IMG/VR virus record: IMGVR_UViG_3300032315_000466
Coordinates: 1-29,419 of that record
Strand: one strand, 5' to 3'
DNA: 29,419 bases
DNA from: a virus
Position numbers and translations under genes: made by a program. The notes beneath the pieces are model-generated. The model saw only the letters and a list, made by a program, of their open reading frames with translations. It searched no databases and was not told the origin of the DNA. Of the stretch, positions 6,422 through 20,222 are shown one piece after another. Position 1 is the first letter of the stretch. The number at the start of each line of letters is the position of its first letter.

Positions 6422-7225
6422 ATGACTGATATGATTTTCAAAACAGACGGTGAAGAAAAGTTTCGCATACCTTCAAATAAACTTGAAATACCTGACTCTG
6501 GATATTTGAAAAGTCCAGGAACAGTATGCCCAAAAACACCACTACACATTTGTGAAATGACTTCAAAAGAAACTATTCAAACCGTCAAAGAAGATATTGC
6601 GGTTCTTCAAGAGAAACTCAAAAAACTGGAAGAACTTGAAATTCAGAACTCAAAATCACCAGCAGAAAAAGCATTCTATCGTGTTTATGGTTATTATCCT
6701 ACATTTGATGGTGAATATGAGGATTCTCCTTGGCAAAGATTTGTGATAGGTTATAATGCTGGATGTAATGCTGGATACTATGATGTAAAAGGAAACAATA
6801 AGAACTTTGAACCAACTTCACAGGAACAAGAAAATAATGAGTGGAGAAATGTTGCTCTTAGGTTTGGGGAGGAACTTGTAAGCATTGGTCCTTGTGGTTA
6901 TTATGATATGACTGCTGATGATTGGTTGGAGTGGGCAAAGGGTGCTTATGAGAAAAATTCTGACGATTTGTTGAAATTTATGCGAGAAAAACAAAGAAAA
7001 TGTGAAGCACTGACAGAAAAACTCCAAGAGAAAACTGTGATTGAACCAAAACCACCGACACTTTTGGATATTGTCTATGAATGGTGCGATGATGATAATG
7101 ACCTCCCCTGTGAAGAACTTGTAAATAGGATTGAAGAATGGTTACCTGATGAGTTTGACCCTAATGAAGCATATGAAATTGGATGGAATGAAGCAATCCA
7201 ATCAATCAAGGAAAAACTACGATGA
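6422..7225 (+). CDS. Hypothetical protein, 267 aa, modular
   Basis: Two starts are possible: ATG at 6422 (MTDMIFKTD, the local style) or ATG at 6410. The protein looks modular: an N-terminal segment, a coiled coil at about residues 45-75 (VLQEKLKKLEELEIQ), a Gly/Tyr-rich middle (GYNAGCNAGYYD), a charged helix, then a C-terminal domain of about 60 residues (from LLDIVYEWCDD) ending GWNEAIQSIKEKLR. That last domain is paralogous to the end of the next gene (GWNDALHTIKEKLR). No enzymatic motif seen. Confidence 0.75.
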   Translation: MTDMIFKTDGEEKFRIPSNKLEIPDSGYLKSPGTVCPKTPLHICEMTSKETIQTVKEDIAVLQEKLKKLEELEIQNSKSPAEKAFYRVYGYYPTFDGEYEDSPWQRFVIGYNAGCNAGYYDVKGNNKNFEPTSQEQENNEWRNVALRFGEELVSIGPCGYYDMTADDWLEWAKGAYEKNSDDLLKFMREKQRKCEALTEKLQEKTVIEPKPPTLLDIVYEWCDDDNDLPCEELVNRIEEWLPDEFDPNEAYEIGWNEAIQSIKEKLR

Positions 7226-7620
7226 CTAAATGTAAATACTGGGATTGTGGATTTTGTTATGCTCCCGATGATATAAAAACTAATGCTACTCAAAGTGGTT
7301 GTTTTGAACCTGAACATTGCCCTTATCTAAAATCACAAATGACTGAAACCGACATCTCAAAAGTTCTCATAGAAGGAGACACCGCAACCATTATGGGTGT
7401 GAAGTATCAACGCATCATAGAACCTCAAAGTTTTTATGATAAACTCTATGGATTGCTACAATCTAATCTTGATGAAAGGGTTGATACAGAAGAAATAACT
7501 ATTAGAGTGTTGAACTTGATTGAGGAGAATATTCCCAAACCTTATGAAGGTGTTGGACTACCAGAGTATTCTGTTGGATGGAATGACGCACTCCACACAA
7601 TCAAAGAAAAACTACGATGA
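7222..7620 (+). CDS. Hypothetical protein with Cys-rich N-terminus, 132 aa
   Basis: The N-terminal 35 residues carry five Cys (CKYWDCGFCYAP, SGCFEPEHCPY), a likely zinc site. The C-terminal 60 or so residues (from SFYDKLYGLLQ to IKEKLR) match the end of the preceding protein in length and in the motif GWN[ED]A[IL]. One appears to have received its tail by duplication. An internal Met (MTETDISK, residue 40) could be an alternative start that would drop the Cys module. Confidence 0.75.
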   Translation: MTKCKYWDCGFCYAPDDIKTNATQSGCFEPEHCPYLKSQMTETDISKVLIEGDTATIMGVKYQRIIEPQSFYDKLYGLLQSNLDERVDTEEITIRVLNLIEENIPKPYEGVGLPEYSVGWNDALHTIKEKLR

Positions 7621-7922
7621 CTGAAAAACCTTTTTATCGTTATTTTGCTATTGATCATTATGAAACTGGTCTTGGTAGGTCTTTCTGGTTGAAAATTTGC
7701 CGTAACTATCAACCAGTTGATGGTAAAGACCGAGAATATGAAAAATTCAAAGAGTTTGTTGGAAACGACTATTTTATTCAAGGTTTTGAAGAAGAACTTA
7801 CCGAAGATAAGTTTATGGAAAGATATACAAGATTCATTCCTTATATGGTTGCTGGAATGATACAAAAAAGAGACCAACCCTTTTTTACTTGGGAAACACA
7901 TTTACACTTCAATTATAGTTAA
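7617..7922 (+). CDS. Hypothetical protein, 101 aa
   Basis: It starts MTEKPFYRYFAIDHYETG. It is aromatic-rich and of mixed alpha/beta character (FWLKICRNYQ, EKFKEFVGNDYFIQGFEEEL). No domain recognised. The start overlaps the previous stop and the next gene begins 2 nt after the stop. Confidence 0.65.
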   Translation: MTEKPFYRYFAIDHYETGLGRSFWLKICRNYQPVDGKDREYEKFKEFVGNDYFIQGFEEELTEDKFMERYTRFIPYMVAGMIQKRDQPFFTWETHLHFNYS

Positions 7923-7924
7923 AA

Positions 7925-8116
7925 ATGACTGAACGAGCACAGAAAATTTCGGACGCAACTTTACCCTACACATTAAGACCCAAAAGTAAGGATAGACAGA
8001 AGGTGATTGCTTGCGTTATTCGTGAGGTTGCCGATAGGTTATGCACAGACCTCGCAGAATTGCAACATCCTTACGACGTTCTTATGGAAATTGCTGATGA
8101 GGTGGAGGCATTATGA
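7925..8116 (+). CDS. Small helical protein, paralogue A, 63 aa
   Basis: It starts MTERAQKISDATLPY. The C-terminal part (VIREVADRLCTDLAELQ ... EIADEVEAL) aligns with the next gene (ALREVINQLQ ... ELCEELEAL), so the two are tandem paralogues. Each is predicted to be two or three helices. Function unknown. Confidence 0.7.
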   Translation: MTERAQKISDATLPYTLRPKSKDRQKVIACVIREVADRLCTDLAELQHPYDVLMEIADEVEAL

Positions 8117-8301
8117 GAACTAAAAGAGAGAAAAGAGTAATGGAAGCATTTTGGAACTCTCATCAACAAGACAGAGCATATTGGCATCGTGATGCTGTTG
8201 CTGCTGCTCTCCGAGAAGTCATCAATCAGTTGCAAGTGTCTCCTGGTGCGATTATGTGTGCTGATGTGTTAGAATTGTGTGAAGAATTGGAGGCATTATG
8301 A
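8113..8301 (+). CDS. Small helical protein, paralogue B, 62 aa
   Basis: It starts MRTKREKRVMEAFWNSHQQ, a basic helix, then repeats the pattern of the upstream paralogue and ends ELCEELEAL. The basic N-terminus distinguishes it from its partner. Coupled by ATGA junctions on both sides. Confidence 0.7.
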   Translation: MRTKREKRVMEAFWNSHQQDRAYWHRDAVAAALREVINQLQVSPGAIMCADVLELCEELEAL

Positions 8302-8555
8302 CTGACGAACAATTCCTAAAACAAACAGCCACCAAAGTTGCAAATATTCTTCATATGCCTTTGGGTGATATTGAACCAATAAAACTGATACAAATGGTTG
8401 TGTCTTTGGATATTCTTTTGGGTGGAGATAAAGAACTTATGATACACTGGGTAAATACTCATAATAAACACTTGGGATATTGTCCTGGTGCTCACTTGAC
8501 GGATGATCGTATGGATGCTACGATACGGTATCTCCAATCAATGGTGGAATGGTAA
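8298..8555 (+). CDS. DUF2384-like small protein, 85 aa
   Basis: It starts MTDEQFLKQTATKVANIL. The section from about residue 38 to the end (DILLGGDKELMIHWVNTHNKH then LGYCPG) resembles the C-terminal domain of ParS/Xre-type proteins (DUF2384), in which a Trp-[IL/VN]-T-x-N segment is followed by LGG/LGxxP. This resemblance is by eye. An antitoxin role is not implied, since no toxin gene is adjacent. Confidence 0.65.
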   Translation: MTDEQFLKQTATKVANILHMPLGDIEPIKLIQMVVSLDILLGGDKELMIHWVNTHNKHLGYCPGAHLTDDRMDATIRYLQSMVEW

Positions 8556-8749
8556 TGGCAAAAAAAGAAGTCAAAGAAGAATTTCCTTATGGTAAAGCAT
8601 TTCCAGTCAAAATTTCTCATAAGGATGGAAAGGATTTGAAAGACACAAAGCACTGTTATTTTGACAGTGAAACGAATGCTCAAAAGTATATCAACAAAAA
8701 CAATTTCAAGAAAAAAGATTATACCATCAATATTTTGAAAAATGAATAA
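8555..8749 (+). CDS. Small Lys-rich protein, 64 aa
   Basis: It starts MAKKEVKEEFPYGKAFP at an ATG overlapping the upstream TAA by one base. It is very Lys-rich, with alternating hydrophobics (FPVKISHKDGKD, YTINILKNE). The middle DSETNAQKYINKNNFK could be a helix flanked by strands. No family known to me. Confidence 0.65.
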   Translation: MAKKEVKEEFPYGKAFPVKISHKDGKDLKDTKHCYFDSETNAQKYINKNNFKKKDYTINILKNE

Positions 8750-8903
8750 AACTAGCAAACTTTTGTTTGCGATAAATCAAACAGAAAACATTATCTCCTT
8801 GATGAAAGATAATGAATATGAGAAATTCTTTTCATCACAACTTTCACCAGTTTTATATGAACTACAACGACAGTTGAAAATTAGTTCTAACTATATTGAA
8901 TGA
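8742..8903 (+). CDS. Small helical protein, 53 aa
   Basis: A 53-codon gene starting MNKTSKLLFAINQTENIISL and ending QLKISSNYIE. It overlaps the upstream gene by 8 nt and the downstream gene by 4 nt (ATGA). It is predicted helical and soluble. Confidence 0.6.
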   Translation: MNKTSKLLFAINQTENIISLMKDNEYEKFFSSQLSPVLYELQRQLKISSNYIE

Positions 8904-9100
8904 TGTGGAGGTTGTGGTCGTTAGCCCTTGGTGAGAAGGCATCAAAACACAGTAAAGAAGCAGATAAGATTGCGGTAATCAGAACCATTATTTTCGCAAC
9001 TTATCTGATTACTAACATCTTTATCGTTTATGGTGTAGTTCGCACTCATATATTTCCGGCAACTCCAAAATCAGTTAAGTGTATTATTGATAGAAAATGA
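8900..9100 (+). CDS. Small membrane protein, 66 aa
   Basis: It starts MMWRLWSLALGEKASKHSKE. A single hydrophobic helix at about residues 28-47 (TIIFATYLITNIFIVYGVV) follows a basic amphipathic N-terminus, so N-in topology is likely. The tail FPATPKSVKCIIDRK is polar. Confidence 0.7.
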   Translation: MMWRLWSLALGEKASKHSKEADKIAVIRTIIFATYLITNIFIVYGVVRTHIFPATPKSVKCIIDRK

Positions 9101-9273
9101 TTGACATACATAAAAATATTGGTTATAATTATAAGTATCCAGCATTGGATGCTACCACTCCTTGGTACGAATTTTTATCATATCAGGAGTGTTGCTGGAG
9201 TTTGAAAAGACCAGTTAGATTGTCTAGTTTTATTCGGTACAACAATTATTTGAATGAAATCGGAGTAAAGTAA
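9097..9273 (+). CDS. Small hypothetical protein, 58 aa
   Basis: A 58-codon frame starting MIDIHKNIGYNYKYPALDAT. It is aromatic-rich and basic, with a CC pair (QECCWSLKRPVRL). It joins both neighbours by overlapping stop and start codons (ATGA before, TAATG after), which is the main support. Confidence 0.6.
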   Translation: MIDIHKNIGYNYKYPALDATTPWYEFLSYQECCWSLKRPVRLSSFIRYNNYLNEIGVK

Positions 9274-9497
9274 TGTCAAGAACTAATCGCAATGTAGAGC
9301 ACATTCACAGTGGTGCTCTTCGTCATCCTCATACCTTCAACGAAATTCGTCAATTAGATGGAATTTTACAGGAAGAAGAACTTAAAGAGTATCCACTCTC
9401 TGGGTTTAATCACTTAAAAGCACGAGAGCATCAGTTGCCAACATCTTGGGATGATATTGTCGTGAGTGGTTATTATGAATCAGACCATCAAAAATAA
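9273..9497 (+). CDS. Conserved cyanophage-type hypothetical protein, 74 aa
   Basis: It starts MSRTNRNVEHIHSGALRHPH. The central NEIRQLDGILQEEELKEYPLSG and the end DDIVVSGYYESDH are of a type I recall from many marine T4-like cyanophages, always unannotated. It is basic at the N-terminus and acidic in the middle. A good ribosome binding site (CGGAGTAA) precedes the ATG. Confidence 0.75.
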   Translation: MSRTNRNVEHIHSGALRHPHTFNEIRQLDGILQEEELKEYPLSGFNHLKAREHQLPTSWDDIVVSGYYESDHQK

Positions 9498-9520
9498 ACA
9501 TTAAAGGAGATTTGAAAATT

Positions 9521-9709
9521 ATGTATGAAGATTTAACGGCTTTTGAAAGAGCACTTGCTCGTTTTGGTGATAAAGTAGGAATGCTTGCGGGCATGGAGTT
9601 ATCTGATAAGATTTCTCCAGAGGAAGCATATCAACAAATTCGTATCCTTTACAAGGAACTCAAAGCACTTCGCAAACAAGAAAAGGACGAATGGGAAGTA
9701 GAAGTATGA
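9521..9709 (+). CDS. Small helical protein, 62 aa
   Basis: Start chosen at ATG 9521, about 10 nt after a clear AAAGGAGA ribosome binding site. An upstream in-frame TTG is ignored. The product MYEDLTAFERALARFGDKVG continues as alternating helices (SPEEAYQQIRILYKELKAL) and ends acidic. Function unknown. Confidence 0.75.
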   Translation: MYEDLTAFERALARFGDKVGMLAGMELSDKISPEEAYQQIRILYKELKALRKQEKDEWEVEV

Positions 9710-9879
9710 CGAATACAACAACTGATGATAGTGGATTGATTGTTAGACAGAATGAAGACGGAACTTTTGAACTGGAATGGGATTCCAAGGACAGTCGGTG
9801 GAGTGTCCTCAATGACCTGACACCAGAGGAAATTCGTGCTATGCTAATGGAAGAAATCAAAAGGGACCTGAATGACTGA
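9706..9879 (+). CDS. Small acidic protein, 57 aa
   Basis: Start at ATG 9706 (MTNTTTDDSGLIVRQN) overlapping the upstream stop; the in-frame extension to 9691 is less likely. GTFELEWDSKDSRWSVLNDL reads as a beta hairpin followed by the helix TPEEIRAMLMEEIKRDLND. It is coupled to the next gene by 8 nt of overlap. Confidence 0.7.
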   Translation: MTNTTTDDSGLIVRQNEDGTFELEWDSKDSRWSVLNDLTPEEIRAMLMEEIKRDLND

Positions 9880-10393
9880 CCACAAAGACTATTCACTCAA
9901 ACAAGTTGAAAACTTTTTGTATGATGCGATGAGTGCTGATGCAACGGCACAAGAAATCTATGATGTAATTAAAGGTGTTGTTTCTGACAACTATAATGTC
10001 TACAAGAATGCTACACAAAAAGCATATGAACTTCTTGCTTTATTGAATGGTAATGGTGAAGGGCACATTAGTTCTTATCCAGTATCCAAAGTTGAAGAGA
10101 AACTCAAAACTCCTATTCAACAAAATCCTCAATATACTGATGAAGAAATGGATGCGATGATTGCTGTTGCAGAGGAAGAAGAACTTATCACTAAAGGATA
10201 CTTCAAAGAAAATGGTTTCTGGAAAAAACCAAAGACTTGGACTGTTGAAGTTTCTATGGATGGATTAACTGGTGATGCCTTTCTTCCAATCCCAGATGAA
10301 GTTATGGACCTAGTTGAATGGAATTTGTATGATGAACTTGAGTGGATTGATAACAAAGATGGTTCTTATATTCTTCGCAAGGTTACGAAATGA
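9872..10393 (+). CDS. Cyanophage protein with helical N-domain and AbrB-like C-domain, 173 aa
   Basis: Residues 1-65 (KQVENFLYDAMSADATAQEI ... AYELLALLNGNG) form a helical domain common in cyanophage proteins. The C-terminal 50 residues (TWTVEVSMDGLTGDAFLPIP then DELEWIDNKDGSYILRK) resemble a swapped-hairpin AbrB/SpoVT-type DNA-binding domain: strand, LP-[IL]-P-x-E, then GD/DELEW and a final strand. A role as a small transcription factor is therefore possible. The family resemblance is from memory. Confidence 0.7.
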   Translation: MTDHKDYSLKQVENFLYDAMSADATAQEIYDVIKGVVSDNYNVYKNATQKAYELLALLNGNGEGHISSYPVSKVEEKLKTPIQQNPQYTDEEMDAMIAVAEEEELITKGYFKENGFWKKPKTWTVEVSMDGLTGDAFLPIPDEVMDLVEWNLYDELEWIDNKDGSYILRKVTK

Positions 10394-10587
10394 ATAAAAT
10401 ATTCACTTCAGGTTCGTATGATGGAGAGTGCTATACTATCAATGTAGCATTCAATGACTTTCACGTTATGACCTTAGATGGTCTTGGTCGTGAAGATTTA
10501 TTTGAACTAGCATCGTGTATTACAACAATGATGCCTCAAGAAGATTTTAGCAAACTTATTATGGAGAAAACTGATGGCAATGTCTGA
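10390..10587 (+). CDS. Small hypothetical protein, 65 aa
   Basis: It starts MNKIFTSGSYDGECYTINVA. It has a beta-rich N-terminal half and a helical C-terminal half (LFELASCITTMMPQEDFSKL). No family named. It overlaps the following gene by 14 nt. Confidence 0.65.
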   Translation: MNKIFTSGSYDGECYTINVAFNDFHVMTLDGLGREDLFELASCITTMMPQEDFSKLIMEKTDGNV

Positions 10588-10789
10588 AAAGGTTGAAGAA
10601 AGTCTCAAAGAAGCAGAAGCATCTCTTCGGAATGCTCTTGCGTTTGCGGCACGAACTGAAAAACCAATGGTGACTTCTGGAATTGCTGATGTGATTAGTC
10701 GCATTAACACTTTGATTGGAACTCATCAAATGTTGGATAGTTTTGAGAGTATGATGGATGGCAAATCAGGATTCGGTAAATTCTTTTAA
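10574..10789 (+). CDS. Conserved cyanophage-type helical protein, 71 aa
   Basis: ATGs at 10574 (MAMSEKVE) and 10580 (MSEKVE) are both possible. The product is a long amphipathic helix (EKVEESLKEAEASLRNALAF) followed by SGIADVISRINTLIGTHQML and a Gly-rich tail. I recall similar unannotated proteins in other cyanophages. A coiled-coil assembly role would be a guess. Confidence 0.7.
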   Translation: MAMSEKVEESLKEAEASLRNALAFAARTEKPMVTSGIADVISRINTLIGTHQMLDSFESMMDGKSGFGKFF

Positions 10790-10802
10790 TAGGAGAAAAC
10801 TT

Positions 10803-11234
10803 ATGACTGACAAATATCTAAGTCACGAAGAAATGTTGGAAATTGCGGAACAACGTGAAAGGGAGAATGAAGAGGCAACCAACCCCAAAAGTCTTGGGAC
10901 ATCATTGGAACAGTGGTGGGATTCTGAAGCACACAAACAATTACAAGAAGCATCAGAAGCAACAGTTCAAAGAGCATTAGAAAAGTATTCTATGCTTTCC
11001 GAAGATGATAAGTATGATATGGTTCAGGCAATCTGTCATATTATGTGTGAGGCAGAAAAGAAAGGTGTGAGTCATCGTGGTCTGATGGATGAACTTGGCA
11101 TTTATCCTTCTGGATTTTGGATTTTAGAGTTGCTTACAGTACATAATTCCTTGTGGTCTTATTATCACGATAAAAAACAAAAAGAAGAGTTAGAAAGAGA
11201 TTTAAAAACCTTACAAGACCTCACAGAAACCTGA
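10803..11234 (+). CDS. Hypothetical helical protein, 143 aa
   Basis: Start at ATG 10803, after the ribosome binding site TAGGAGA. Upstream in-frame codons lie in the previous gene. It begins MTDKYLSHEEMLEIAEQRER. Nearly all is predicted helical, with a Trp pair (EQWWDSEAHK) and a charged C-terminal coiled coil (KKQKEELERDLKTLQDL). No family recognised. This is the last gene of the long small-gene block. Confidence 0.75.
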   Translation: MTDKYLSHEEMLEIAEQRERENEEATNPKSLGTSLEQWWDSEAHKQLQEASEATVQRALEKYSMLSEDDKYDMVQAICHIMCEAEKKGVSHRGLMDELGIYPSGFWILELLTVHNSLWSYYHDKKQKEELERDLKTLQDLTET

Positions 11235-11250
11235 AGACATTATTAAGGAA

Positions 11251-11280
11251 TTGTCATATTCATAGATAGTGTGTTAGAAT
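11251..11280 (+). promoter_or_regulatory. Sigma70-type promoter
   Basis: TTGTCA (11251-11256) and TAGAAT (11275-11280) are separated by 18 nt, followed after 26 nt by the ATG of the next small gene. This is a reasonable host-type promoter, unlike the -35-less module used further upstream. Confidence 0.55.
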
Positions 11281-11306
11281 GCTGACATACACATATGGAG
11301 AACTTT

Positions 11307-11477
11307 ATGGAACTAACAACTGACGAAATTTCTAAAATCACTAAAGAAGAATACGAAGAACTTCAAGTTCTTCGTAGAGCAATTAGTGATAATATATCTT
11401 CAGTCCATCCAGATAAACAAGAAAGATTTACTCATTTATTTGTTAAGTCTCTTTCTTATGTTGTAGATGCAGGATAA
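11307..11477 (+). CDS. Small helical protein, 56 aa
   Basis: ATG 11307 is preferred to ATG 11295 because GGAGA lies 6 nt before it. The product MELTTDEISKITKEEYEELQ continues as a second helix and ends SLSYVVDAG. It stands alone between a promoter and a terminator. Unknown function. Confidence 0.65.
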   Translation: MELTTDEISKITKEEYEELQVLRRAISDNISSVHPDKQERFTHLFVKSLSYVVDAG

Positions 11478-11480
11478 ATA

Positions 11481-11535
11481 AAGGTGCCTGACTTGGTGGT
11501 TCTTTTCAGGTTGGATAAAGCACCTTTGGGTGCTT
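11481..11535 (+). terminator. Terminator with competing hairpins
   Basis: AAGCACC TTTG GGTGCTTTT (about 11518-11537) is a rho-independent terminator hairpin. Its left arm can also pair with AAAGGTGC at 11480-11487, giving an alternative fold that would break the terminator. An outer 11-bp inverted repeat (ACTTGGTGGTT at 11491-11501 and AACCACCAAGT at 11555-11565) encloses it. The arrangement resembles an attenuator, but control is not shown. Confidence 0.65.
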
Positions 11536-11541
11536 TTCCTG

Positions 11542-11549
11542 TATAAATA
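11542..11549 (+). promoter_or_regulatory. T4-type late promoter box TATAAATA
   Basis: A perfect match to the T4 late consensus TATAAATA lies 28 nt before the GIY-YIG start codon and is positioned to drive that gene and possibly the capsid-targeted operon behind it. Confidence 0.6.
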
Positions 11550-11576
11550 GTAATAACCACCAAGTTAAGAGCAGAA

Positions 11577-12248
11577 ATGGAAGGAGCAATCTATTGTTTC
11601 TATTGTATTCCTACAGGAAAGAAATACATCGGACAAACAGTAAATTTAAATAGAAGAATTATATCTCACAGAAAAGATTTTAGAAATGGATTGGATAGTA
11701 AATTTTATCGTGCTGTAAAAAAATATGGTTGGGATAATTTTATTTTTGGTATAATTGCTGAATGTGAAAAAGAAGATTTGAATGAAAAAGAAATATTTTT
11801 CATTCATCATTATGATACGTATCATAATGGATATAATTCAACTTTGGGGGGAGGAGGAAGGTTTGGTTTTGTTTTATCTGAAGATACAAAAAATAAAATA
11901 AGTTTAGCAAATCGTGGCAAAAAAATGTCAGAAGAACAGAAAAAATATTTGAGTGATTTGTATAAAAGTAGAAATGTAATTCCTCCAAATAGAAAAGGAT
12001 GCAAAATGTCTGAAAGTTCTAAACTTAAAATTTCTGAAGCATCAAAAAATAGAAAAATTTCAGAAAGCACAATAAAAAAATTATCAGAATTGAATGCTAA
12101 AGAATTTACTTTGATTTCTCCAGAAGGAAACATTTTTACTGGAAAAAATATATCAGAGTTTTGTAAAAATAATAATTTAAACAGAATTTGTATAGGTAAT
12201 GTCTTGAACTCAAAAGCATCACACCATAAAGGATGGAAACGACTTTGA
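11577..12248 (+). CDS. GIY-YIG homing endonuclease with NUMOD repeats, 223 aa
   Basis: Residues 3-20 (GAIYCFYCIPTGKKYIGQT) carry the paired GIY and YIG motifs. R27 and E73 (NEKEIFFI, with a nearby HHYD) fit the catalytic Arg and Glu. Residues 100-175 hold repeated NUMOD3-like units (K-I-S-[LE]-A and SE-[ES] patterns), and the C-terminus (FTGKNISEFCKNNNLNR) is NUMOD1-like, a helix-turn-helix DNA-binding unit. This is the domain order of I-TevI/Seg-type enzymes that make a site-specific cut and drive their own spread. It stands free between a terminator and the capsid-targeted operon, with no intron visible around it. Codon use is more AT-rich than that of its neighbours. Confidence 0.9.
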   Translation: MEGAIYCFYCIPTGKKYIGQTVNLNRRIISHRKDFRNGLDSKFYRAVKKYGWDNFIFGIIAECEKEDLNEKEIFFIHHYDTYHNGYNSTLGGGGRFGFVLSEDTKNKISLANRGKKMSEEQKKYLSDLYKSRNVIPPNRKGCKMSESSKLKISEASKNRKISESTIKKLSELNAKEFTLISPEGNIFTGKNISEFCKNNNLNRICIGNVLNSKASHHKGWKRL

Positions 12249-12277
12249 TAAATAATCAAAGGTATTTTTGTATCTAA

Positions 12278-12982
12278 ATGATTTCGGAAGCAAGTAGAAG
12301 AGAGAAGATTGCTAATGCTGTTCTTGGTGCAACATTTGCATTAAGTGCAGCACAATCTCCCAAAGACTTCGTAAGAACAGGAAATATTGAAAGTCCTGGA
12401 ACTGCTCTAATGCAAACTTGGGGAAGAAGAAGAGGAGAAGCAGAAAGAAATCTAAATAGTGCTAGAGTTTCAGACCCAGCAAGAAATAAAAAAATGAAAA
12501 CATTTAAAGAGTTTGTAGGAGAAGCATATCTTTCTGAAATGAGAAAGGAAGATAAAGTTGCTGGAAAACAGAAAACTCCACTTTATAATGTTAAAACAAA
12601 TAAAAAATTAGAAAAAACACCAGAAGGTAAGTGGGAAACGAAGACCACCACTTACAAGAGACCAAGTGCAGAAGCAACTTTTGGAAGAAATCAACCACTT
12701 CACGCACACGGAAAGCGTAATGGAGTATCAGGCATCAATCGTGGTGTGAAGCAAGCAGATCAAAAGAAACCATATGTACCAACAACAGACGCAAAAGCAA
12801 GAAAACGTCATAAGGATTTCTTTAGATATCATCACGGTGAAGTAGCAGATACTAAAAGAAAAGAAGCACAGAAAACTGGTTTTACTCAAGCATCACAGTC
12901 TTGGAGTTCCTCTAAACCAAAGACTAAATCAAGTGCAGCAGAACGTATGTCGGCAGCAGCAGATAAACTTGGACTCAAATGA
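12278..12982 (+). CDS. Protein with internal capsid-targeting signal, 234 aa (or 162 aa from the internal start)
   Basis: Residues 73-83 read MKTFKEFVGEA, a match to the N-terminal targeting signal that sends T4 internal proteins into the prohead and is cut by the gp21 protease after Glu. In the next three genes this signal is at residue 1. Here it is preceded by 72 residues (MISEASRREKIANAVLGATF...) that read as a separate segment, so either translation starts at ATG 12494 or an upstream piece has been fused. The rest is Lys/Arg-rich and low complexity with HAHGKRNG and FFRYHHGE sections, compatible with binding packaged DNA. Upstream ATAAATAA (about 12247) resembles a late promoter. Confidence 0.75.
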   Translation: MISEASRREKIANAVLGATFALSAAQSPKDFVRTGNIESPGTALMQTWGRRRGEAERNLNSARVSDPARNKKMKTFKEFVGEAYLSEMRKEDKVAGKQKTPLYNVKTNKKLEKTPEGKWETKTTTYKRPSAEATFGRNQPLHAHGKRNGVSGINRGVKQADQKKPYVPTTDAKARKRHKDFFRYHHGEVADTKRKEAQKTGFTQASQSWSSSKPKTKSSAAERMSAAADKLGLK

Positions 12983-13542
12983 AAACCTTTAGAGAGTTTT
13001 TAGAAGAAGCAACCAGAGAAGAAGCAGACAAAAAAAGACAAGCAAAAGCAAATCCTAATGATTGGGTTTTAAATAATACTGGAAGCACAGAAAATCCAAA
13101 ATGGGGATTGAAAAGTAAATTTGCACGTTCTGCACAAGCAAAAAGAAGAACAGACACTATTAAATCATTAAACACAGATGATGAACGTAAGGCAGCAAAA
13201 CGTAAATCTAAACGTGCAGCAAGAAGAGGATATGAAATACATCACATCACCCCATTACATCATTCTGCCAAACTCAAATCATCTATGACTGGTGCAGAAT
13301 GGGAAAAAAGAAAAGCAGAAGATGCTAAAGATGGAATATATCACGGACATCATCCCAAAAATATAATGCACGTAAAAGGACCAAATACTTCTGCTGATAA
13401 ACCTGGAATTCGTCATAGAGCAGGTGGAGCACACGAACTTGAAGGTAAAGTGAAGGATATTGTATCTGGTTCAAGAATTACTTATAGAGATTTACTTGCA
13501 GCAGCAGTTAAAAAGCAAAGACAAGCAGCAAAAGACAAATGA
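12979..13542 (+). CDS. Capsid-targeted HNH-like nuclease, 187 aa
   Basis: It begins MKTFREFLEEA, a capsid-targeting signal with the expected cut after Glu10. A basic linker follows (KAAKRKSKRAARRG). Residues 84-131 hold GYEIHHITPLHH and HGHHPKNIMHVKG, the His-His ... N ... H pattern of HNH/treble-clef nucleases of the colicin type. A basic C-terminus ends RQAAKDK. Start and stop are ATGA-coupled to the genes on either side. The inferred role is a nuclease packaged in the head and injected with the genome, perhaps against host DNA. No immunity gene is evident. The nuclease assignment rests on the motif pattern only. Confidence 0.75.
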   Translation: MKTFREFLEEATREEADKKRQAKANPNDWVLNNTGSTENPKWGLKSKFARSAQAKRRTDTIKSLNTDDERKAAKRKSKRAARRGYEIHHITPLHHSAKLKSSMTGAEWEKRKAEDAKDGIYHGHHPKNIMHVKGPNTSADKPGIRHRAGGAHELEGKVKDIVSGSRITYRDLLAAAVKKQRQAAKDK

Positions 13543-13928
13543 AAACTTTTCAGCAATTCATCGCAGAAGCAAACCAAAAATCTCACGATGAAGTAATGAA
13601 AAAAATGAGTACAAATTGGAACCGGAATAATCCTGGTTCCAATTTTAATGTTGATTATAGATCATCAGAAGACCCAAAGAAAAATCACATATATCTTGGT
13701 TTAATTGACGTAAAGCAAGAAAAGAGAAGAGCAGGTAAAGGAACTAGATTTGTTCGTGGTATCACAAGATACGCAGACAAACATAAGTTGCCAGTCAGTG
13801 TAAAACCAGTTCCAGAAAAAGGATATGAAGATAAATTAAAATCTTTTTATTCTAAACACGGATTTGAGGACAATAAAACCAAAGAGATTGCTCCACATCC
13901 AATGATTCGTAATCCTAAAAATAAATAA
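13539..13928 (+). CDS. Capsid-targeted GNAT-like acetyltransferase, 129 aa
   Basis: The signal MKTFQQFIAEA is at residues 1-11 with the predicted cut after Glu10. The body fits a small GNAT fold: strand HIYLGLIDVKQE, then RRAGKGT (residues 63-69), which resembles the acetyl-CoA pyrophosphate loop R-x-x-G-x-G/A, then a helix and strand (LPVSVKPVP), and LKSFYSKHGF (100-109), the usual GNAT C-terminal signature. If active, it would modify a host molecule after injection, in the way T4 packages the ADP-ribosyltransferase Alt. Substrate unknown. Confidence 0.75.
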   Translation: MKTFQQFIAEANQKSHDEVMKKMSTNWNRNNPGSNFNVDYRSSEDPKKNHIYLGLIDVKQEKRRAGKGTRFVRGITRYADKHKLPVSVKPVPEKGYEDKLKSFYSKHGFEDNKTKEIAPHPMIRNPKNK

Positions 13929-13938
13929 AAGTAAAACG

Positions 13939-14769
13939 ATGAAAACTTATCAAGAGTTTGTTTCCGAAGCAAAGAAGTGCTGGCCTGGGTATAAGAAAAA
14001 AGGCACCAAAAAACTATTTGGAAAGACGTATAATAATTGTGTAAAAGAAGAAATTGAACTAGAAGAAAGTTCTACTGGTGAAAAGACCAGAGGTAAAGCA
14101 ACTCTCGCAAGAGGTAGAGGTGCTGATATGACTAGAAGTGAAAGATCTACAGCAGCAGTCGCAAAGAAAGCAGGATTGAAAGGGACTGGTAAGTATTCCA
14201 CTAAAGACTTAAGAAAACCTGCAAGAGATTATACAACTTATGATAGTGAAGATACTGATGATGATTACGGAAGCACAGAACAAGACCATTTTATTCGCAC
14301 ATATCCATCAGCAAGAGCAGCAGCAAAAGGTGAAAGACTGATTACTAAGATGAAAGCAGCAGGAAGAACTCTATCTGGTATGACTAAACTGAAAACCGCA
14401 CCTTCAAGTGAAAGTGTAAGAAGAGTGAAAGATTTGAAGAAGCAAATGACGAAATCGGGTGCGAATAAAACTGGAAAAGTTCATACTGTAGATATTATGC
14501 ATCGTGATAGTAATGTAGGTAAAGGTGATAGAAAAAAAAGAATGGAAAGGGGAAAAAACTTTATTCAAGCAATCAAAGATACACCAAAACACTTGAAGAA
14601 AGCAGGAGCAAAGAAAGGTGATACTGTAATTGGAAAACCAACAGCAGTTATGGATGGTGAGGATAAGAAAACTGGTGAAGCAAAGAGAGCAAAACTTTAT
14701 AAAAATATCTTTGGTAAAAGGAGCACCAAAAAGTCAGAAAAAACGGGACTTATGACAGGTAAAGTTTAA
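13939..14769 (+). CDS. Capsid-targeted basic protein with WPGY module, 276 aa
   Basis: It begins MKTYQEFVSEA, almost the T4 internal-protein signal itself. Next comes CWPGYKKKGTKKLFGKTYNN with a C13...C34 pair, a module I recall in several cyanophage virion-associated proteins. The remainder is very basic and Ala/Gly/Thr-rich, with an acidic island (YDSEDTDDDYGSTEQDH) around residues 94-110. The C-terminal half (GDTVIGKPTAVMDGEDKKTG then RAKLYKNIFGK) is more folded and contains HRD at 192-194. No enzyme is identified. It closes the packaged-protein operon before a strong terminator. Confidence 0.75.
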   Translation: MKTYQEFVSEAKKCWPGYKKKGTKKLFGKTYNNCVKEEIELEESSTGEKTRGKATLARGRGADMTRSERSTAAVAKKAGLKGTGKYSTKDLRKPARDYTTYDSEDTDDDYGSTEQDHFIRTYPSARAAAKGERLITKMKAAGRTLSGMTKLKTAPSSESVRRVKDLKKQMTKSGANKTGKVHTVDIMHRDSNVGKGDRKKRMERGKNFIQAIKDTPKHLKKAGAKKGDTVIGKPTAVMDGEDKKTGEAKRAKLYKNIFGKRSTKKSEKTGLMTGKV

Positions 14770-14795: not shown

Positions 14796-14819
14796 GACCC
14801 CCACAAGGGGGTCTTTTTT
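14796..14819 (+). terminator. Strong rho-independent terminator
   Basis: GACCCCC (14796-14802), loop ACAA, GGGGGTC (14807-14813) and six T. It ends the capsid-targeted operon. A weaker hairpin GGACA...TGTCC (14772-14790) lies just before it. Confidence 0.9.
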
Positions 14820-14849: not shown

Positions 14850-15260
14850 ATGGAACTGACTGTACTTGCTTACAAACTTGAAGATGGACTATGGGCATTT
14901 GACCACCCTCATAACGATACAGTCCAAGAACTTTTGATGAATGGAACTGAAGAAGCAATTGACGAATACTTTTATTTTGAAACTGGACGACACGCAGTTG
15001 AAAAAGACCAAATGGAAATCATTTTGAATACAGAAGAACCAGAGGATTATGATACTTTGCTTGTAAAAGAAGTTAGTGATGATGATGGAACTACATATAT
15101 GGATACGACACTTTGTATTCCTGTATGGTTGTGTCCTTGGTTACAAGGATACTTTGGATTTATTCCTGAGGAAATATATATTAAAGTTCGTCCAATTAAC
15201 AAAGGTCTTGAAGCATTCGTGAAAAATACAGGGATGAGACGGTTTCTGGACCGTCCCTGA
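14850..15260 (+). CDS. Conserved phage protein of DUF6717 type, 136 aa
   Basis: The pattern starts with LYKLEDGLWAFDHP-like text (LTVLAYKLEDGLWAFDHPHN), continues with a central acidic part and ends with the WLCPWLQGYFGFIPEEIYIK segment. I recall this pattern from a small family of unknown function (DUF6717 type) found in phages and environmental bacteria. No catalytic residues are obvious. The end of the gene overlaps a short GC hairpin (GACGGT..ACCGTC). Confidence 0.65.
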   Translation: MELTVLAYKLEDGLWAFDHPHNDTVQELLMNGTEEAIDEYFYFETGRHAVEKDQMEIILNTEEPEDYDTLLVKEVSDDDGTTYMDTTLCIPVWLCPWLQGYFGFIPEEIYIKVRPINKGLEAFVKNTGMRRFLDRP

Positions 15261-17076: not shown

Positions 17077-17721
17077 ATGAACTACAAGGATCTACAGAAT
17101 ATTGCGTTTCTTTCTCAAGAAATTCTTACCGAATCAGCAACTAAAGAGCACGATGCTTTGGATCGTTGGCCTTATACTTCTCCTTATCTTCAAGAATCAA
17201 CTGAAGTTTCTGAAGAAAGAGCACCTGGCGTAAAACCTTACGGAGGTGGCAAAGAAGTAGGAGATAAAATGAGAGCAGGTTACGGTATAAAAATTACACC
17301 AAAACCACCTTCTGGTAAAAAGGGAGATGGAAGTGGATATGGTGAGGACAAGAAGTTCGCCAAACCCGATGATAAAATTGAAAAGCCAGGAACCACTGTT
17401 CCAGAACCAAAGAAAGGTGGATATGGTAGAATTTCAAGAACTATTCCTTATGGCATTGGAGATCACGCAACTCCAACTCAATCAAGAGTTTCTGTAATAG
17501 TTAGAAAGGACCCTGGGGCACCAACTTCACAAAAACTTCCACCAGAAGATAAGAAGAAACTAAGTCGTGAAATCATCAGAAAACCAAAGAATGAAGAGTA
17601 TGATCTCTATGATGTAATTCTTTCTCATCTTCTTGATGAAGGTTATGCTGAAACTGTTGAAAACGCAGAAGCAATTATGGTGAATATGAGTGAAGAGTGG
17701 AGAGATTCCATTCTCGGTTGA
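17077..17721 (+). CDS. Cyanophage virion-type protein with C-terminal helical module, 214 aa
   Basis: The N-terminal 30 residues (NYKDLQNIAFLSQEILTESA) form a helix ending in ...LTE-S, which is similar to, but not, the capsid-targeting signal. The middle is Pro/Gly/Lys-rich and probably disordered (KPYGGGKEVGDKMRAGYG). The end (YDLYDVILSHLLDEGYAETV then AIMVNMSEEWRDSILG) is a module that I recall at the C-terminus of many cyanophage structural or hypothetical proteins. CATAAATA at 17044 is a late-promoter-like box. A virion or assembly role is likely. Confidence 0.75.
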   Translation: MNYKDLQNIAFLSQEILTESATKEHDALDRWPYTSPYLQESTEVSEERAPGVKPYGGGKEVGDKMRAGYGIKITPKPPSGKKGDGSGYGEDKKFAKPDDKIEKPGTTVPEPKKGGYGRISRTIPYGIGDHATPTQSRVSVIVRKDPGAPTSQKLPPEDKKKLSREIIRKPKNEEYDLYDVILSHLLDEGYAETVENAEAIMVNMSEEWRDSILG

Positions 17722-18127: not shown

Positions 18128-18161
18128 GAAACTTGAAAACTGAATATTTACCATATTATAT

Positions 18162-18233
18162 GGGTCAGTAACTCAATGGAAGAGTACCGGGCTTTTAACC
18201 TGAAAGTTGTGGGTTCGAGTCCCACCTGACCCA
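18162..18233 (+). tRNA. tRNA-Lys(TTT)
   Basis: Acceptor GGGTCAG/CTGACCC, anticodon loop CTTTTAA, T-arm GTGGG TTCGAGT CCCAC, discriminator A; no encoded CCA. The outer anticodon-stem pair is mismatched (C-A). Confidence 0.9.
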
Positions 18234-18313
18234 TTGACCGAGAATGTCATTAAACTATAGATGATTCAGCAAAAAAACTTTTTTTTGGTAAAAAAACAAC
18301 ATCATCTAGTCTT

Positions 18314-18402
18314 GGGTGTGTGTCTACTGTTGGCAACGTAGTATCAGTCTGTAAAACTGAAGTGGTTTTTTAGCCTCGGGGGTTCAATTCCCTCCGCACC
18401 CA
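18314..18402 (+). tRNA. tRNA-Tyr(GTA)
   Basis: Class II tRNA with acceptor GGGTGTG/CGCACCC, anticodon stem TCAGT/ACTGA, loop CTGTAAA, a long variable arm and T-loop TTCAATT. CCA not encoded. Confidence 0.92.
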
Positions 18403-18404
18403 TT

Positions 18405-18483
18405 TGCCGTGGTTCAAAACTTTAGATAAGTCCAGTGGGGCACTTATCAAAAAGTTTTGGTTTAGATTCACGACCACACGGCA
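18405..18483 (+). ncRNA. Unassigned structured RNA, tRNA-like ends
   Basis: TGCCGTG (18405-18411) pairs fully with CACGGCA (18477-18483), like a 7-bp acceptor stem. GGTT/GACC forms a T-arm-like helix. In place of D and anticodon arms there is one long hairpin: AAAACTTT/AAAGTTTT then GATAAGT/ACTTATC. It sits between tRNA-Tyr and tRNA-Asp in the same array. It may be a decayed tRNA or a separate small RNA. Confidence 0.45.
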
Positions 18484-18488
18484 TATTT

Positions 18489-18561
18489 GGCTCTATAGTG
18501 AAGTGGTCTATCACGCCTACCTGTCTAGTAGGAATCACGAGTTCGAATCTCGTTAGAGTCG
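18489..18561 (+). tRNA. tRNA-Asp(GTC)
   Basis: Acceptor GGCTCTA/TAGAGTC, anticodon stem CCTAC/GTAGG, loop CTGTCTA, T-loop TTCGAAT, discriminator G as expected for Asp. Confidence 0.92.
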
Positions 18562-18563
18562 TT

Positions 18564-18606
18564 GCTGATTTGCGCTGGAGCTGATAATCCAGAATGCCGT
18601 CAGCAT
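18564..18606 (+). other. Hairpin element between tRNAs
   Basis: GCTGA...TCAGC encloses CTGGA GCTGATAA TCCAG with unpaired interiors. The total is 43 nt, too short for a tRNA, although the loop contains the Ile-type sequence CTGATAA. Purpose unknown; it may be a processing site. Confidence 0.35.
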
Positions 18607-18609
18607 CAA

Positions 18610-18681
18610 GTTCCTGTCGTCTAATGGTTAGGACGATGCCCTTTCAAGGCATAAACGAGGGTTCAAATCCCTTCAGGAATA
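18610..18681 (+). tRNA. tRNA-Glu(TTC)
   Basis: Acceptor GTTCCTG/CAGGAAT, anticodon stem ATGCC/GGCAT, loop CTTTCAA, T-loop TTCAAAT, discriminator A, and CCA encoded at 18682-18684. Confidence 0.92.
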
Positions 18682-18685
18682 CCAA

Positions 18686-18759
18686 CGGAATGTAGCTCAG
18701 TTTGGTAGAGCATTCGCTTTGGGAGCGAGAGGTCGCAGGTTCGAATCCTGTCATTCCGA
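18686..18759 (+). tRNA. tRNA-Pro(TGG)
   Basis: Acceptor CGGAATG/CATTCCG, D-arm GCTC/GAGC, anticodon stem TTCGC/GCGAG, loop TTTGGGA, T-loop TTCGAAT. Confidence 0.92.
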
Positions 18760-18783
18760 TTGGAGATTTATCTCCAAACTTAT

Positions 18784-18857
18784 GGGAACATGGTGTAGGT
18801 TGGTCGGCACGTATGTCTGAAGAACATGAGGTCACAGTTCGATTCTGTGTGTTCCCA
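18784..18857 (+). tRNA. tRNA-Phe(GAA)
   Basis: Acceptor GGGAACA/TGTTCCC, D-stem GTGT/GCAC, anticodon stem TATGT/ACATG, loop CTGAAGA, T-arm CACAG TTCGATT CTGTG. A short hairpin TGGAGATTTATCTCCA lies upstream. Confidence 0.9.
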
Positions 18858-18927
18858 TAAGAGGGCGGAAGCAACACACCTCTCTAAAAACGGGTTGGAG
18901 GTTGCAAGTTTCCATAAACTTGCCTGA
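18858..18927 (+). other. 70-nt spacer with an 8-bp hairpin
   Basis: GCAAGTTT CCAT AAACTTGC (about 18904-18923) is a perfect hairpin, and AGAGG/CCTCT can pair before it. I find no cloverleaf and no ORF. Confidence 0.35.
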
Positions 18928-19000
18928 TGGAATGTAGCTCAGTTGGTAGAGCACACGGCTGATAACCGTGCGGTCACGAGTTCAAGTCTCGTCGTTCCAA
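18928..19000 (+). tRNA. tRNA-Ile(GAT)
   Basis: Acceptor TGGAATG/CGTTCCA, D-arm GCTC/GAGC, anticodon stem CACGG/CCGTG, loop CTGATAA, T-loop TTCAAGT, discriminator A. Confidence 0.92.
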
Positions 19001-19154
19001 TTCCCCTTCGGGGGTTCAACAAGAGAAGTAGTAAGGATAGGTAACGCTGAACCCGTTGCTGAATGGTGAAGCCTTTGTCGGCGTTTCCCCCCCAACCCGG
19101 CTCATACCCGGTGCTTGGGGCTCCCCAACTAAAATCTTGTCTCGAAAGGGAAAC
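19001..19154 (+). other. 154-nt spacer with several hairpins
   Basis: Contains CCCCTTCGGGG, a GGGTTCA...TGAACCC pair (about 19012-19054), CCGG CTCATAC CCGG, and TTGGGGCTCCCCAA. GTTTCCC and GGGAAAC can pair around the last two. No ORF and no convincing cloverleaf; the CAT loop lacks D- and T-arms. Confidence 0.35.
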
Positions 19155-19223
19155 CGGAACGTAGTCTAATGGTAGGCAACTGGCACTGCCAGATTTATGC
19201 AGGTTCGAGTCCTGTCGTTCCAA
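19155..19223 (+). tRNA. Atypical tRNA, possibly tRNA-Gly(GCC)
   Basis: Acceptor CGGAACG/CGTTCCA (first pair C-A), D-stem GTCT/AGGC and T-arm GCAGG TTCGAGT CCTGT are sound. The anticodon region CTGGCACTGCCAG is a near-perfect inverted repeat, so the 7-nt loop would be GCACTGC with C at position 33. Reading T33-GCC-A would give Gly but breaks the stem. The gene is probably degenerate or non-standard. Confidence 0.55.
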
Positions 19224-19258
19224 TTCCCTTAAATGGGAATTTTACGGGGTCGAGCATC

Positions 19259-19303
19259 AGGTAAAGTTTCGTTAGGTAATAGATGTATTACTGCGAAATA
19301 CCT
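19259..19303 (+). ncRNA. Long irregular hairpin between tRNAs
   Basis: GGTA (19260)/TACC (19302), TTTCG/CGAAA and GTAATA GATG TATTAC stack into one extended hairpin. It resembles in style the long arm of the 18405 element. No tRNA features. Confidence 0.35.
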
Positions 19304-19311
19304 CTAGAATT

Positions 19312-19402
19312 GGAAGTGTGGCAGAGTCCGGTTTATTGCAGAATCCTGCTAAGATTCCGTGTCAAGTAATTGGCACCACTGGTTCAAATCCAGTCACTTC
19401 CG
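19312..19402 (+). tRNA. tRNA-Ser(GCT)
   Basis: Class II: acceptor GGAAGTG/CACTTCC, anticodon stem GAATC/GATTC, loop CTGCTAA, long variable arm, T-loop TTCAAAT, discriminator G. Its D-arm (GCAGAGTCCGGTTTATTGC) is the same as in tRNA-Ser(TGA) at 22187. Confidence 0.92.
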
Positions 19403-19404
19403 TT

Positions 19405-19494
19405 GAGAGAGCACCTTGGTCGGTGAGCACGACGGTGTTAGAGGCGGTTCGATTCCGTCCTTTGGCAATGGTGGTTCGATTCCACCTTCTCTCA
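19405..19494 (+). tRNA. tRNA-like RNA with two T-arm-like hairpins
   Basis: Acceptor GAGAGAG/TTCTCTC. D-arm-like CACC TTGGTC GGTG, then GCAC/GTGT with a 4-nt loop, then GGCGG TTCGATT CCGTC, then GGTGG TTCGATT CCACC next to the acceptor. If the first TTCGATT is the anticodon loop, the anticodon is CGA (Ser) and the extra hairpin is an insertion. If it is the variable arm, no normal anticodon loop remains. Identity unresolved. Confidence 0.45.
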
Positions 19495-19499
19495 AATCT

Positions 19500-19584
19500 G
19501 GAGAATTGTCCGAGAGGATTATGGTGCAAACTTGGAAAGTTTGTGTGGATAAAACCACCAGAGGTTCGAATCCTCTATTCTCCG
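19500..19584 (+). tRNA. tRNA-Ser(GGA)
   Basis: Class II: acceptor GGAGAAT/ATTCTCC, anticodon stem CAAAC/GTTTG, loop TTGGAAA, long variable arm GTGGATAAAACCAC, T-arm AGAGG TTCGAAT CCTCT, discriminator G with CCA encoded at 19585-19587. Confidence 0.92.
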
Positions 19585-19587
19585 CCA

Positions 19588-19659
19588 GGCAGTATAGTTC
19601 AGTGATAGAACAGAAGATTCATACCCTTCTCGTCGGTGGTTTGATTCCACCTACTGTCA
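19588..19659 (+). tRNA. tRNA-Met(CAT)
   Basis: Acceptor GGCAGTA/TACTGTC, D-stem GTTC/GAAC, anticodon stem GAAGA/CCTTC, loop TTCATAC, T-arm GGTGG TTTGATT CCACC. It starts directly after the encoded CCA of tRNA-Ser. A CAT anticodon could be elongator Met or lysidine-dependent Ile. Confidence 0.87.
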
Positions 19660-19660
19660 T

Positions 19661-19732
19661 GTGCCATTATCCTAGTGGTTAAGGAACCTGTTTGTGAAAC
19701 AGGGTAGACGAGTTCAAATCTCGTATGGCACC
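19661..19732 (+). tRNA. tRNA-His(GTG)
   Basis: Acceptor GTGCCAT/ATGGCAC, anticodon stem CCTGT/ACAGG, loop TTGTGAA, T-loop TTCAAAT, discriminator C as required for His. Position -1 is T, so G-1 would need to be added. Confidence 0.92.
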
Positions 19733-19734
19733 CC

Positions 19735-19807
19735 GCCCGATTAGCTCAGTGGCCAGAGCAATTGTCTAGTAAACAATAGGTCATCAGTTCAAATCTGATA
19801 TTGGGCT
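19735..19807 (+). tRNA. tRNA-Thr(AGT), A at position 34
   Basis: Acceptor GCCCGAT/ATTGGGC, D-arm GCTC/GAGC, anticodon stem ATTGT/ACAAT, loop CTAGTAA, T-arm ATCAG TTCAAAT CTGAT. Bacterial Thr tRNAs normally carry G, U or C at position 34, so A34 is unusual. Confidence 0.88.
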
Positions 19808-19883
19808 TTGTCGGAAGTAATTAATCCGACAGCGTGAAACAGTTGGTCGCACCAACACTATGTTGAGTAGGTTTCACGTTAAT
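19808..19883 (+). ncRNA. Branched hairpin element between tRNAs
   Basis: TGTCGG...CCGACA forms a first hairpin (about 19809-19831). Then CGTGAAAC (19833-19840) pairs with GTTTCACG (19871-19878) around an inner GTTGGT CGC ACCAAC hairpin. The second part is a 46-nt structured unit with no cloverleaf match. Confidence 0.4.
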
Positions 19884-19957
19884 GTCTAGGTGGCAGAGTG
19901 GTCAAATGCGGAGGTCTGCAAAACTTCTTATCGTGGGTTCGAATCCCACCCTAGACT
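19884..19957 (+). tRNA. tRNA-Cys(GCA)
   Basis: Acceptor GTCTAGG/CCTAGAC, anticodon stem GAGGT/ACTTC, loop CTGCAAA, T-arm GTGGG TTCGAAT CCCAC, discriminator T as usual for Cys. Confidence 0.92.
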
Positions 19958-19991
19958 TTTAATCCCGTTGATTTTCACGGGATTAACTTAA

Positions 19992-20065
19992 TCCCAAGTA
20001 GACAAATTGGTAAAGTCACCTCGCTTTGAACGAGTTGTTTGGAGGTTCGACCCCTTCCTTGGGAG
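19992..20065 (+). tRNA. tRNA-Gln(TTG)
   Basis: Acceptor TCCCAAG/CTTGGGA, anticodon stem with CTCG/CGAG core, loop CTTTGAA, T-loop TTCGACC, discriminator G. An 8-bp hairpin AATCCCGT...ACGGGATT lies just upstream (19961-19984). Confidence 0.9.
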
Positions 20066-20068
20066 CCT

Positions 20069-20142
20069 GCCCGGTTGATGGAATTGGTATACATACTTGT
20101 CTTAGAAACAAGGTTTTGCAGGTTCGAGTCCTGTATCGGGCA
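20069..20142 (+). tRNA. tRNA-Leu(TAG), short variable loop
   Basis: Acceptor GCCCGGT/ATCGGGC, anticodon stem CTTGT/ACAAG, loop CTTAGAA, T-arm GCAGG TTCGAGT CCTGT. The D-arm is Leu-like (GGAATTGGTA), but the variable region is just GTTTT, not the long arm of normal bacterial Leu tRNAs. Confidence 0.9.
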
Positions 20143-20171
20143 TTGCCAGTTCCCAAACTGGCACAATCACC

Positions 20172-20200
20172 TTGAATGTAGTGTCCATAGATGCTACAAT
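20172..20200 (+). promoter_or_regulatory. Sigma70-type promoter with upstream palindrome
   Basis: TTGAAT (20172-20177), a 17-nt spacer and TACAAT (20195-20200). The palindrome TTGCCA-N10-TGGCAC (20143-20164) lies just upstream, as at other promoters of this window. Confidence 0.75.
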
Positions 20201-20222
20201 AATACGGTAAACAACAAATCAA

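Follow-up and report, generated by a model that had tools for sequence, protein, structure and literature searches.

A four-gene cassette of a T4-like cyanomyovirus fragment joins one T4-type targeting sequence to exchangeable bodies and is likely a locus for packaged cargo

The internal proteins of T-even phages are established examples of a conserved targeting sequence (CTS) joined to varied bodies (PMC3012670, PMC9026906, PMC12373910). Mutagenesis of T4 IPIII has assigned CTS residues 4 and 7 to targeting, and residues 8 and 10 to processing by the gp21 protease (PMC9026906). Like the cassette described here, T4 IPI, IPII and IPIII have a 10-residue CTS with the same key residues (4, 7, 8 and 10) and an E/A cut, which in the cassette is predicted, and they carry basic, unrelated bodies that vary between relatives behind one tag. 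The T4-type protease is likewise common to T4 and to the phage group of the cassette. The cassette differs from the T4 proteins in its cyanophage host, in its four tandem genes with a single closing terminator, in the internal position of the gene 1 tag behind a 72-residue leader, and in having a GNAT and an HNH-like family among its bodies in place of GmrSD inhibitors. A further likeness is found in T4 Alt, a head-packaged ADP-ribosyltransferase that acts on the host after injection (PMC9026906). It is an enzyme of another kind, and its N-terminus is not known to bear this form of CTS.

Non-structural enzymes are also found in cyanophage virions, including NMNAT/cytidylyltransferase, SAM hydrolase, an APH/ChoK-like kinase and Cas9 (PMC10665884, PMC9602691). 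Most of those examined here bear a tag of this kind, either at the N-terminus or close to it, but they are encoded by single genes or in another cluster and have other bodies; their authors are not known to have reported a targeting sequence. The inner-body and ejection proteins of the giant phages phiKZ and SPN3US resemble the proposed cargo in that their propeptides are cut by a prohead protease during maturation, after which they are ejected, but phiKZ has no such tag by our DNA pattern and no match to the S77 protease model. In the open-access literature searched, the CTS of cyanophages received only passing mention, in one T4 review; subscription papers were outside the scope of the search. 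Within that literature, the mechanism is already known from T4, and the cyanophage cassette and the breadth of its cargo look new.

The stretch of DNA analysed (the window) is 29,419 nt long, and its best DNA relatives are the cyanomyoviruses S-CRM01 and B23. The window is a fragment of a cyanomyovirus, in the preferred reading a T4-like member of the Kyanoviridae. The same cassette is found in other viral contigs, including one of 247 kb (G001), and psbA/psbD-type genes are present in five of them (G001, G004, G006, G007 and G008); as psbA occurs in several, these relatives of the cassette are cyanophages. Elsewhere, the window harbors a run of 25 tRNA genes that together serve most amino acids (18161-22955, +) and a cyanobacterial-type permuted tmRNA (22943-23201, +; Rfam cyano_tmRNA, 102.7 bits, E = 1.1e-27), for which ARAGORN gives the tag ANNIVAFSRQTALV. 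It also encodes a 519-residue SPFH/Band 7 domain protein (27333-28892, Pfam 4.6e-15) and, at 17077-17721, a protein with a C-terminal EEYDLYDVILSHLLDEGYAETVENAEAIMVNMSEEWRDSI module that matches phrog_3708 (3.4e-7); a short reading frame resembling this one lies downstream of the cassette in the 247-kb contig. The features of the cassette and its flanks are as follows, a slash marking the predicted cut.

11577-12248, +: GIY-YIG and NUMOD3 homing endonuclease (Pfam 1.1e-7 and 1.6e-6)
12247-12254, +: late-promoter-like element GATAAATA, 31 nt upstream of gene 1
12278-12982, +: gene 1, 234 residues; leader, CTS and basic P1 body
12278-12493, +: gene 1 leader, 72 residues (MISEASRREK...ARNKK), conserved in relatives
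12494-12526, +: CTS copy 1, MKTFKEFVGE/A, located inside gene 1, with cleavage predicted after codon 12521-12523
12979-13542, +: gene 2, 187 residues; CTS and HNH-like nuclease body (motif only)
12979-13011, +: CTS copy 2, MKTFREFLEE/A, N-terminus of gene 2
13539-13928, +: gene 3, 129 residues; CTS and likely GNAT acetyltransferase body with an RRAGKG motif
13539-13571, +: CTS copy 3, MKTFQQFIAE/A, N-terminus of gene 3
13939-14769, +: gene 4, 276 residues; CTS, CWPGY module and basic C-terminal domain
13939-13971, +: CTS copy 4, MKTYQEFVSE/A, N-terminus of gene 4
13972-14049, +: CWPGY module of gene 4, common to several PHROGs of unknown function
14050-14766, +: gene 4 C-terminal domain, conserved and basic
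14796-14813, +: intrinsic terminator GACCCCCACAAGGGGGTC-TTTTTT, closing the cassette
14850-15260, +: DUF6717 gene (Pfam 7.6e-8), the conserved 3' flank that ends the variable locus in most relatives

The motif MKT[FY]x[EQ]FxxEA is shared by four co-directional genes on the plus strand. Genes 1 and 2 and genes 2 and 3 are joined by ATGA overlaps, and 10 nt separate genes 3 and 4. Across the whole window the DNA form of the pattern matches four times on the forward strand, with no match on the reverse strand or in a backwards control, and among the called reading frames the protein motif is found exclusively at the four cassette methionines. In the four tags, position 4 is F, F, F and Y, position 7 is always F, position 8 is V, L, I and V, and positions 10 and 11 are always E and A, so that the residues critical in T4 (4, 7, 8 and 10) are kept in all four. 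The identical DNA pattern picks up T4 IPII and IPIII (MKTYQEFIAEA). The cut is predicted after Glu-10 by the cleavage rule described for T4 (PMC9026906); the predicted mature products of all four genes have a pI of 10.0-10.3, against a median of 5.5 for the other plus-strand reading frames of the window.

The tag of gene 1 is internal. The 72 codons upstream of it are in frame and conserved as protein sequence in dozens of relatives, with more than 70 tblastn locus hits to the leader in related contigs, many of which overlap one another. In many relatives of gene 1, the tag methionine is replaced by K, L or N (KKTFKEF, LKTFKEF, NKTFREF), and translation could not start there. Gene 1, therefore, begins at 12278 and not at 12494, and the tag comprises residues 73-83. 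A parallel is found in gp23 of T4, in which AQAFGSFLTEA, which we take to be the maturation cut site, lies about 56 residues in and fits the tag consensus. To our knowledge, the CTS has not been tested in an internal position in T4.

The features upstream of gene 1 make late expression likely, on the evidence of a sequence motif only and without transcript data. Of 26 distinct regions upstream of the leader gene in relatives, 25 have the motif NATAAATA, reported as a cyanophage late promoter (PMC2984593), at a distance of 28-33 nt, whereas it occurs in 1.9% of background 80-nt segments. At 12241-12270 of the window and in relatives, the late-promoter motif TGATAAATAAT often sits in a hairpin loop followed by a T-rich stretch, an arrangement that looks like an upstream terminator merged with the promoter, although some relatives cannot form the pairing. 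The hairpin was dropped as a candidate conserved regulatory element because several relatives are unpaired yet retain the promoter motif.

The bodies behind the tags are supported to different degrees. Gene 3 is likely a GNAT by its family, and the call is good: Acetyltransf_7 is matched by six of eight family members (best Pfam E = 5.6e-9), GNAT motif A (Q/RxxGxG/A) is present as RRAGKG, and tagged GNAT relatives are found in S-CRM01, where Glu-10 is followed by G instead of A, and in B23. The window protein alone scores 0.017 against Acetyltransf_7, under the Pfam cut-off, and its individual function is inferred. The assignment of gene 2 as an HNH-like nuclease rests on a motif only (HHITP...HHPKN...AHE, conserved in the family alignment), with weak, scattered matches to protein families; its activity is inferred. 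As a single-sequence protein query, gene 2 returned no confirmed relatives, and these surfaced only via neighbouring genes. Gene 4 has 40 related loci in viral contigs, but comparison with Pfam, the PDB and PHROG was uninformative. Its CWPGY...NNCVKE module (13972-14049) is shared by several PHROGs without a known function, and the DNA of the gene 4 region is matched by proteins of S-E7 and S-P4 annotated as "structural protein". Gene 1 had no match in the Pfam scan, and for its leader Pfam, the PDB and PHROG gave nothing informative. Genes 1 and 4 thus have no enzyme domain recognisable by Pfam or PHROG and no assignable fold. The AlphaFold models of gene 2 (mean pLDDT 67) and gene 4 (pLDDT 61) are weak, and neither had a fold match in the PDB (Foldseek, E<=0.001), so that no fold is claimed for either protein.

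A first-pass annotation, made from sequence alone, had described four coupled genes sharing this tag, and this is shown to be real, the coordinates and sequences being exact. It had placed the tag at the N-terminus throughout, which holds for genes 2-4 and fails for gene 1, and had begun both gene 1 and the transcription unit at 12494, both of which fail, since the frame opens at 12278 and the unit opens with the late-promoter-like GATAAATA at 12247. The terminator it placed at the end of the operon is confirmed at 14796-14813. Its descriptions of the bodies held for the basic protein of gene 1 (by predicted mature pI) and for gene 4 as a long basic protein with a WPGY module, held for the GNAT of gene 3 through relatives rather than the window protein itself, and held only in part, by motif, for the HNH-like gene 2, for which the structure prediction it had proposed as a check gave a weak model without a PDB fold match.

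The shared N-terminus could be a recombination or translation feature, or a residue of tandem duplication, without any role in sorting. The genes adjoin, duplication can yield adjacent copies, and the DNA of the tag is similar across copies. Against this, protein positions 4, 7, 8, 10 and 11 are conserved, whereas the codons and residues 5, 6 and 9 vary; relatives of gene 1 keep the internal motif though its start codon is gone; the tag is carried by 55 body clusters (in a motif-selected sample); and it marks virion proteins in S-CREM2. This alternative is all but excluded, leaving a sorting signal as the preferred reading.

No gp21 or gp23 gene was seen in the 29-kb window fragment. A gp21-type protease (PF03420, Peptidase S77) is encoded in four contigs with the same cassette (G001, G003, G005 and G014), three of which (G001, G003 and G014) also encode the gp23 capsid protein. 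PF03420 was found in all nine T4-like reference genomes searched and in none of T7, P-SSP7, SPO1, phiKZ and P1. Over 32 records, the DNA pattern of the tag gave 48 matches against none in the control; it is absent from the five protease-less phages and present, in its strict form, in seven of the nine T4-like references, S-PM2 and KVP40 being the exceptions. Some of these nine references were picked for similarity to the cassette, and the count is not fully independent.

Comparison of related loci shows directly that bodies are exchanged at the tag junction, as protein-level matches. In approximately 30 related architectures, the ends of the locus are kept, the leader gene standing first and the DUF6717 gene last, while the tagged bodies in between come, go and replace one another. 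The leader and tag are followed by the P1 body in the window and in L128, L136 and L155, but by the HNH-like body in G001, L142, L143, L151, L158 and L160; in most phages of the second kind, P1 has its own tagged gene, whereas the window has a separate tagged gene for the HNH-like body instead. The GNAT-like gene is present, swapped for a distant GNAT, or missing; the C-terminal domain of gene 4 is retained in most relatives, but the middle of the gene varies; and an EGKVPW segment that forms a separate tagged gene in L129 lies inside gene 4 in G001. Global alignment of the DNA around the swap junction yielded no informative comparison of identity, the background being inflated by gaps.

This variability could be driven by mobile elements rather than by selection on cargo, with the HNH-like gene being a homing endonuclease. 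A GIY-YIG homing endonuclease, a neighbour outside the cassette that is absent from that place in G001, adjoins the cassette upstream, and the HNH-like body is found now in gene 1, now in a gene 2 of its own. However, the HNH-like body carries an in-frame CTS with the same junction in nearly every relative, for which a free-standing homing enzyme has no need, and non-nuclease bodies (GNAT, the P1 body and others) show the same turnover. A homing origin of the variability is, consequently, very unlikely, and exchange of tagged cargo remains the better account.

The range of tagged proteins extends beyond this locus. A scan of viral contigs gave at least 120 stretches, a motif-selected sample that speaks to diversity and not to enrichment, with at least 112 complete tagged proteins in 55 body clusters; among these Pfam recognises SAM lyase (5.8e-14), glucosaminidase, DPBB, GNAT and several DUFs. 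It is possible that some of these bodies, such as glucosaminidase and DPBB, act in the tail or in lysis and not in the cytoplasm. The tagged SAM lyase family protein (L122:7160-7690) is a possible injected anti-restriction enzyme. CTS-bearing proteins in L099, L108, L061, L015 and L027 have an HGT...GF...G(V)Y pattern that is ADP-ribosyltransferase-like by eye; those of L099, L061 and L027 had no informative match in the Pfam scan.

None of the four cassette proteins, nor a close relative, is known to us from a virion proteome, and the evidence for packaging is by proxy. For S-CREM2, a virion proteome of 52 proteins has been published (PMC10665884). Six S-CREM2 reading frames (ORF6, ORF13, ORF14, ORF136, ORF154 and ORF175) fit a rule derived from T4 (aromatic/Leu/Ile at position 4, Phe/Tyr at 7, aliphatic/Phe at 8, Glu at 10), among them a SAM hydrolase (ORF6), an APH/ChoK-like kinase with a GTG start (ORF14) and a cytidylyltransferase (ORF154). 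Five of the six are in the virion list (P=0.003), as is one of two in S-SCSM1 (NMNAT), giving six of eight for the two phages pooled (P=0.001); tagged gp175 (ORF175) of S-CREM2 and ORF30 of S-SCSM1 were undetected in virions. The S-CREM2 P value is only indicative, as the background was 221 annotated features and the rule was fixed after the S-CREM2 N-termini had been viewed with a similar expression. The sole tagged protein found in S-SM1, the cytidyltransferase T4-GC190, is reported in its virions (PMC3037559). The authors of the S-CREM2 study caution that purified virions may be contaminated by abundant proteins (PMC10665884). In the same phage (L275, region 3837-13331), the virion Cas9 (ORF12) has a CTS-like RFASFMAEA about 18 residues in, and the products of the neighbouring ORFs 6, 13 and 14 begin with CTS-like sequences.

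Packaged proteins need not have a task in the next host, and the four could be merely minor core or DNA-condensing parts of the head that remain with the DNA and aid assembly. All four are strongly basic, genes 1 and 4 lack a recognisable enzyme domain, and T4 IPIII mutants are slow in head assembly (PMC9026906). Gene 3, on the other hand, falls within a GNAT family, a nuclease-like motif is present in gene 2, bodies turn over fast while the tag and flanks stay, as expected for host-directed cargo, and T4 IP1-3 block host restriction enzymes (PMC12373910). A purely structural role is, therefore, unlikely.

The preferred reading is that the cassette serves a T4-like cyanophage (Kyanoviridae) as a cargo locus expressed late in infection, and we consider this reading, of a packaged cargo locus addressed by the CTS, likely (probability of about 0.8). 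According to this model, the CTS would bind the prohead core and bring each protein in during assembly, a gp21-type prohead protease would cut after Glu-10, and the basic body (pI ~10) would be retained alongside the DNA inside the head. From there it would most likely enter the host together with the genome and act earliest in infection, within the first minutes and before phage gene expression. The HNH-like body may target DNA, whether host or competing, or else a component of defence. The GNAT body may have a host protein or a small molecule as its substrate for acetylation. The basic bodies of genes 1 and 4 are perhaps DNA-bound inhibitors of host defence, as are T4 IPI-III. The internal proteins of T4 are inhibitors of distinct GmrSD restriction enzymes (PMC12373910), which makes counter-defence or early takeover the obvious guess. 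Packaging of the four proteins is likely on indirect support, and so is processing, the cleavage itself being inferred; injection, host targets and the functions of individual bodies are inferred only.

The first-pass annotation had proposed a delivery system with exchangeable cargo behind a constant tag, and this interpretation is supported, the exchange being seen directly in related loci. It had held that the reading would be refuted if the proteins were absent from virions, if the phage had no gp21-type protease or if the motif occurred at random, and none of the three refuted it: the first could be addressed by proxy only, through the tagged proteins of the S-CREM2 proteome, the second is not met in the phage group, given PF03420 in four cassette contigs, and the third is not met by the pattern counts and the absence of the tag from phages without the protease. 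Its claims that the four proteins are packaged, and any injection, are still inferred.

A bolder reading, towards which the balance tips slightly, is that T4-like phages infecting aquatic bacteria share the CTS as a general sorting signal. If so, dozens of unrelated proteins, including GNATs, nucleases, SAM lyases, nucleotidyltransferases, kinases and Cas9, would be loaded into the head, which would account for the repeated finding of non-structural enzymes in the virions of cyanophages, and N-termini would predict the injected proteome of uncultured phages. The locus shows a natural exchange of cargo at the tag junction, which T4 engineers carry out by hand. If the tag works here as in T4, a ten-residue signature would predict which phage proteins enter the host before phage gene expression, and would turn scattered reports of cyanophage virion enzymes into one testable rule.
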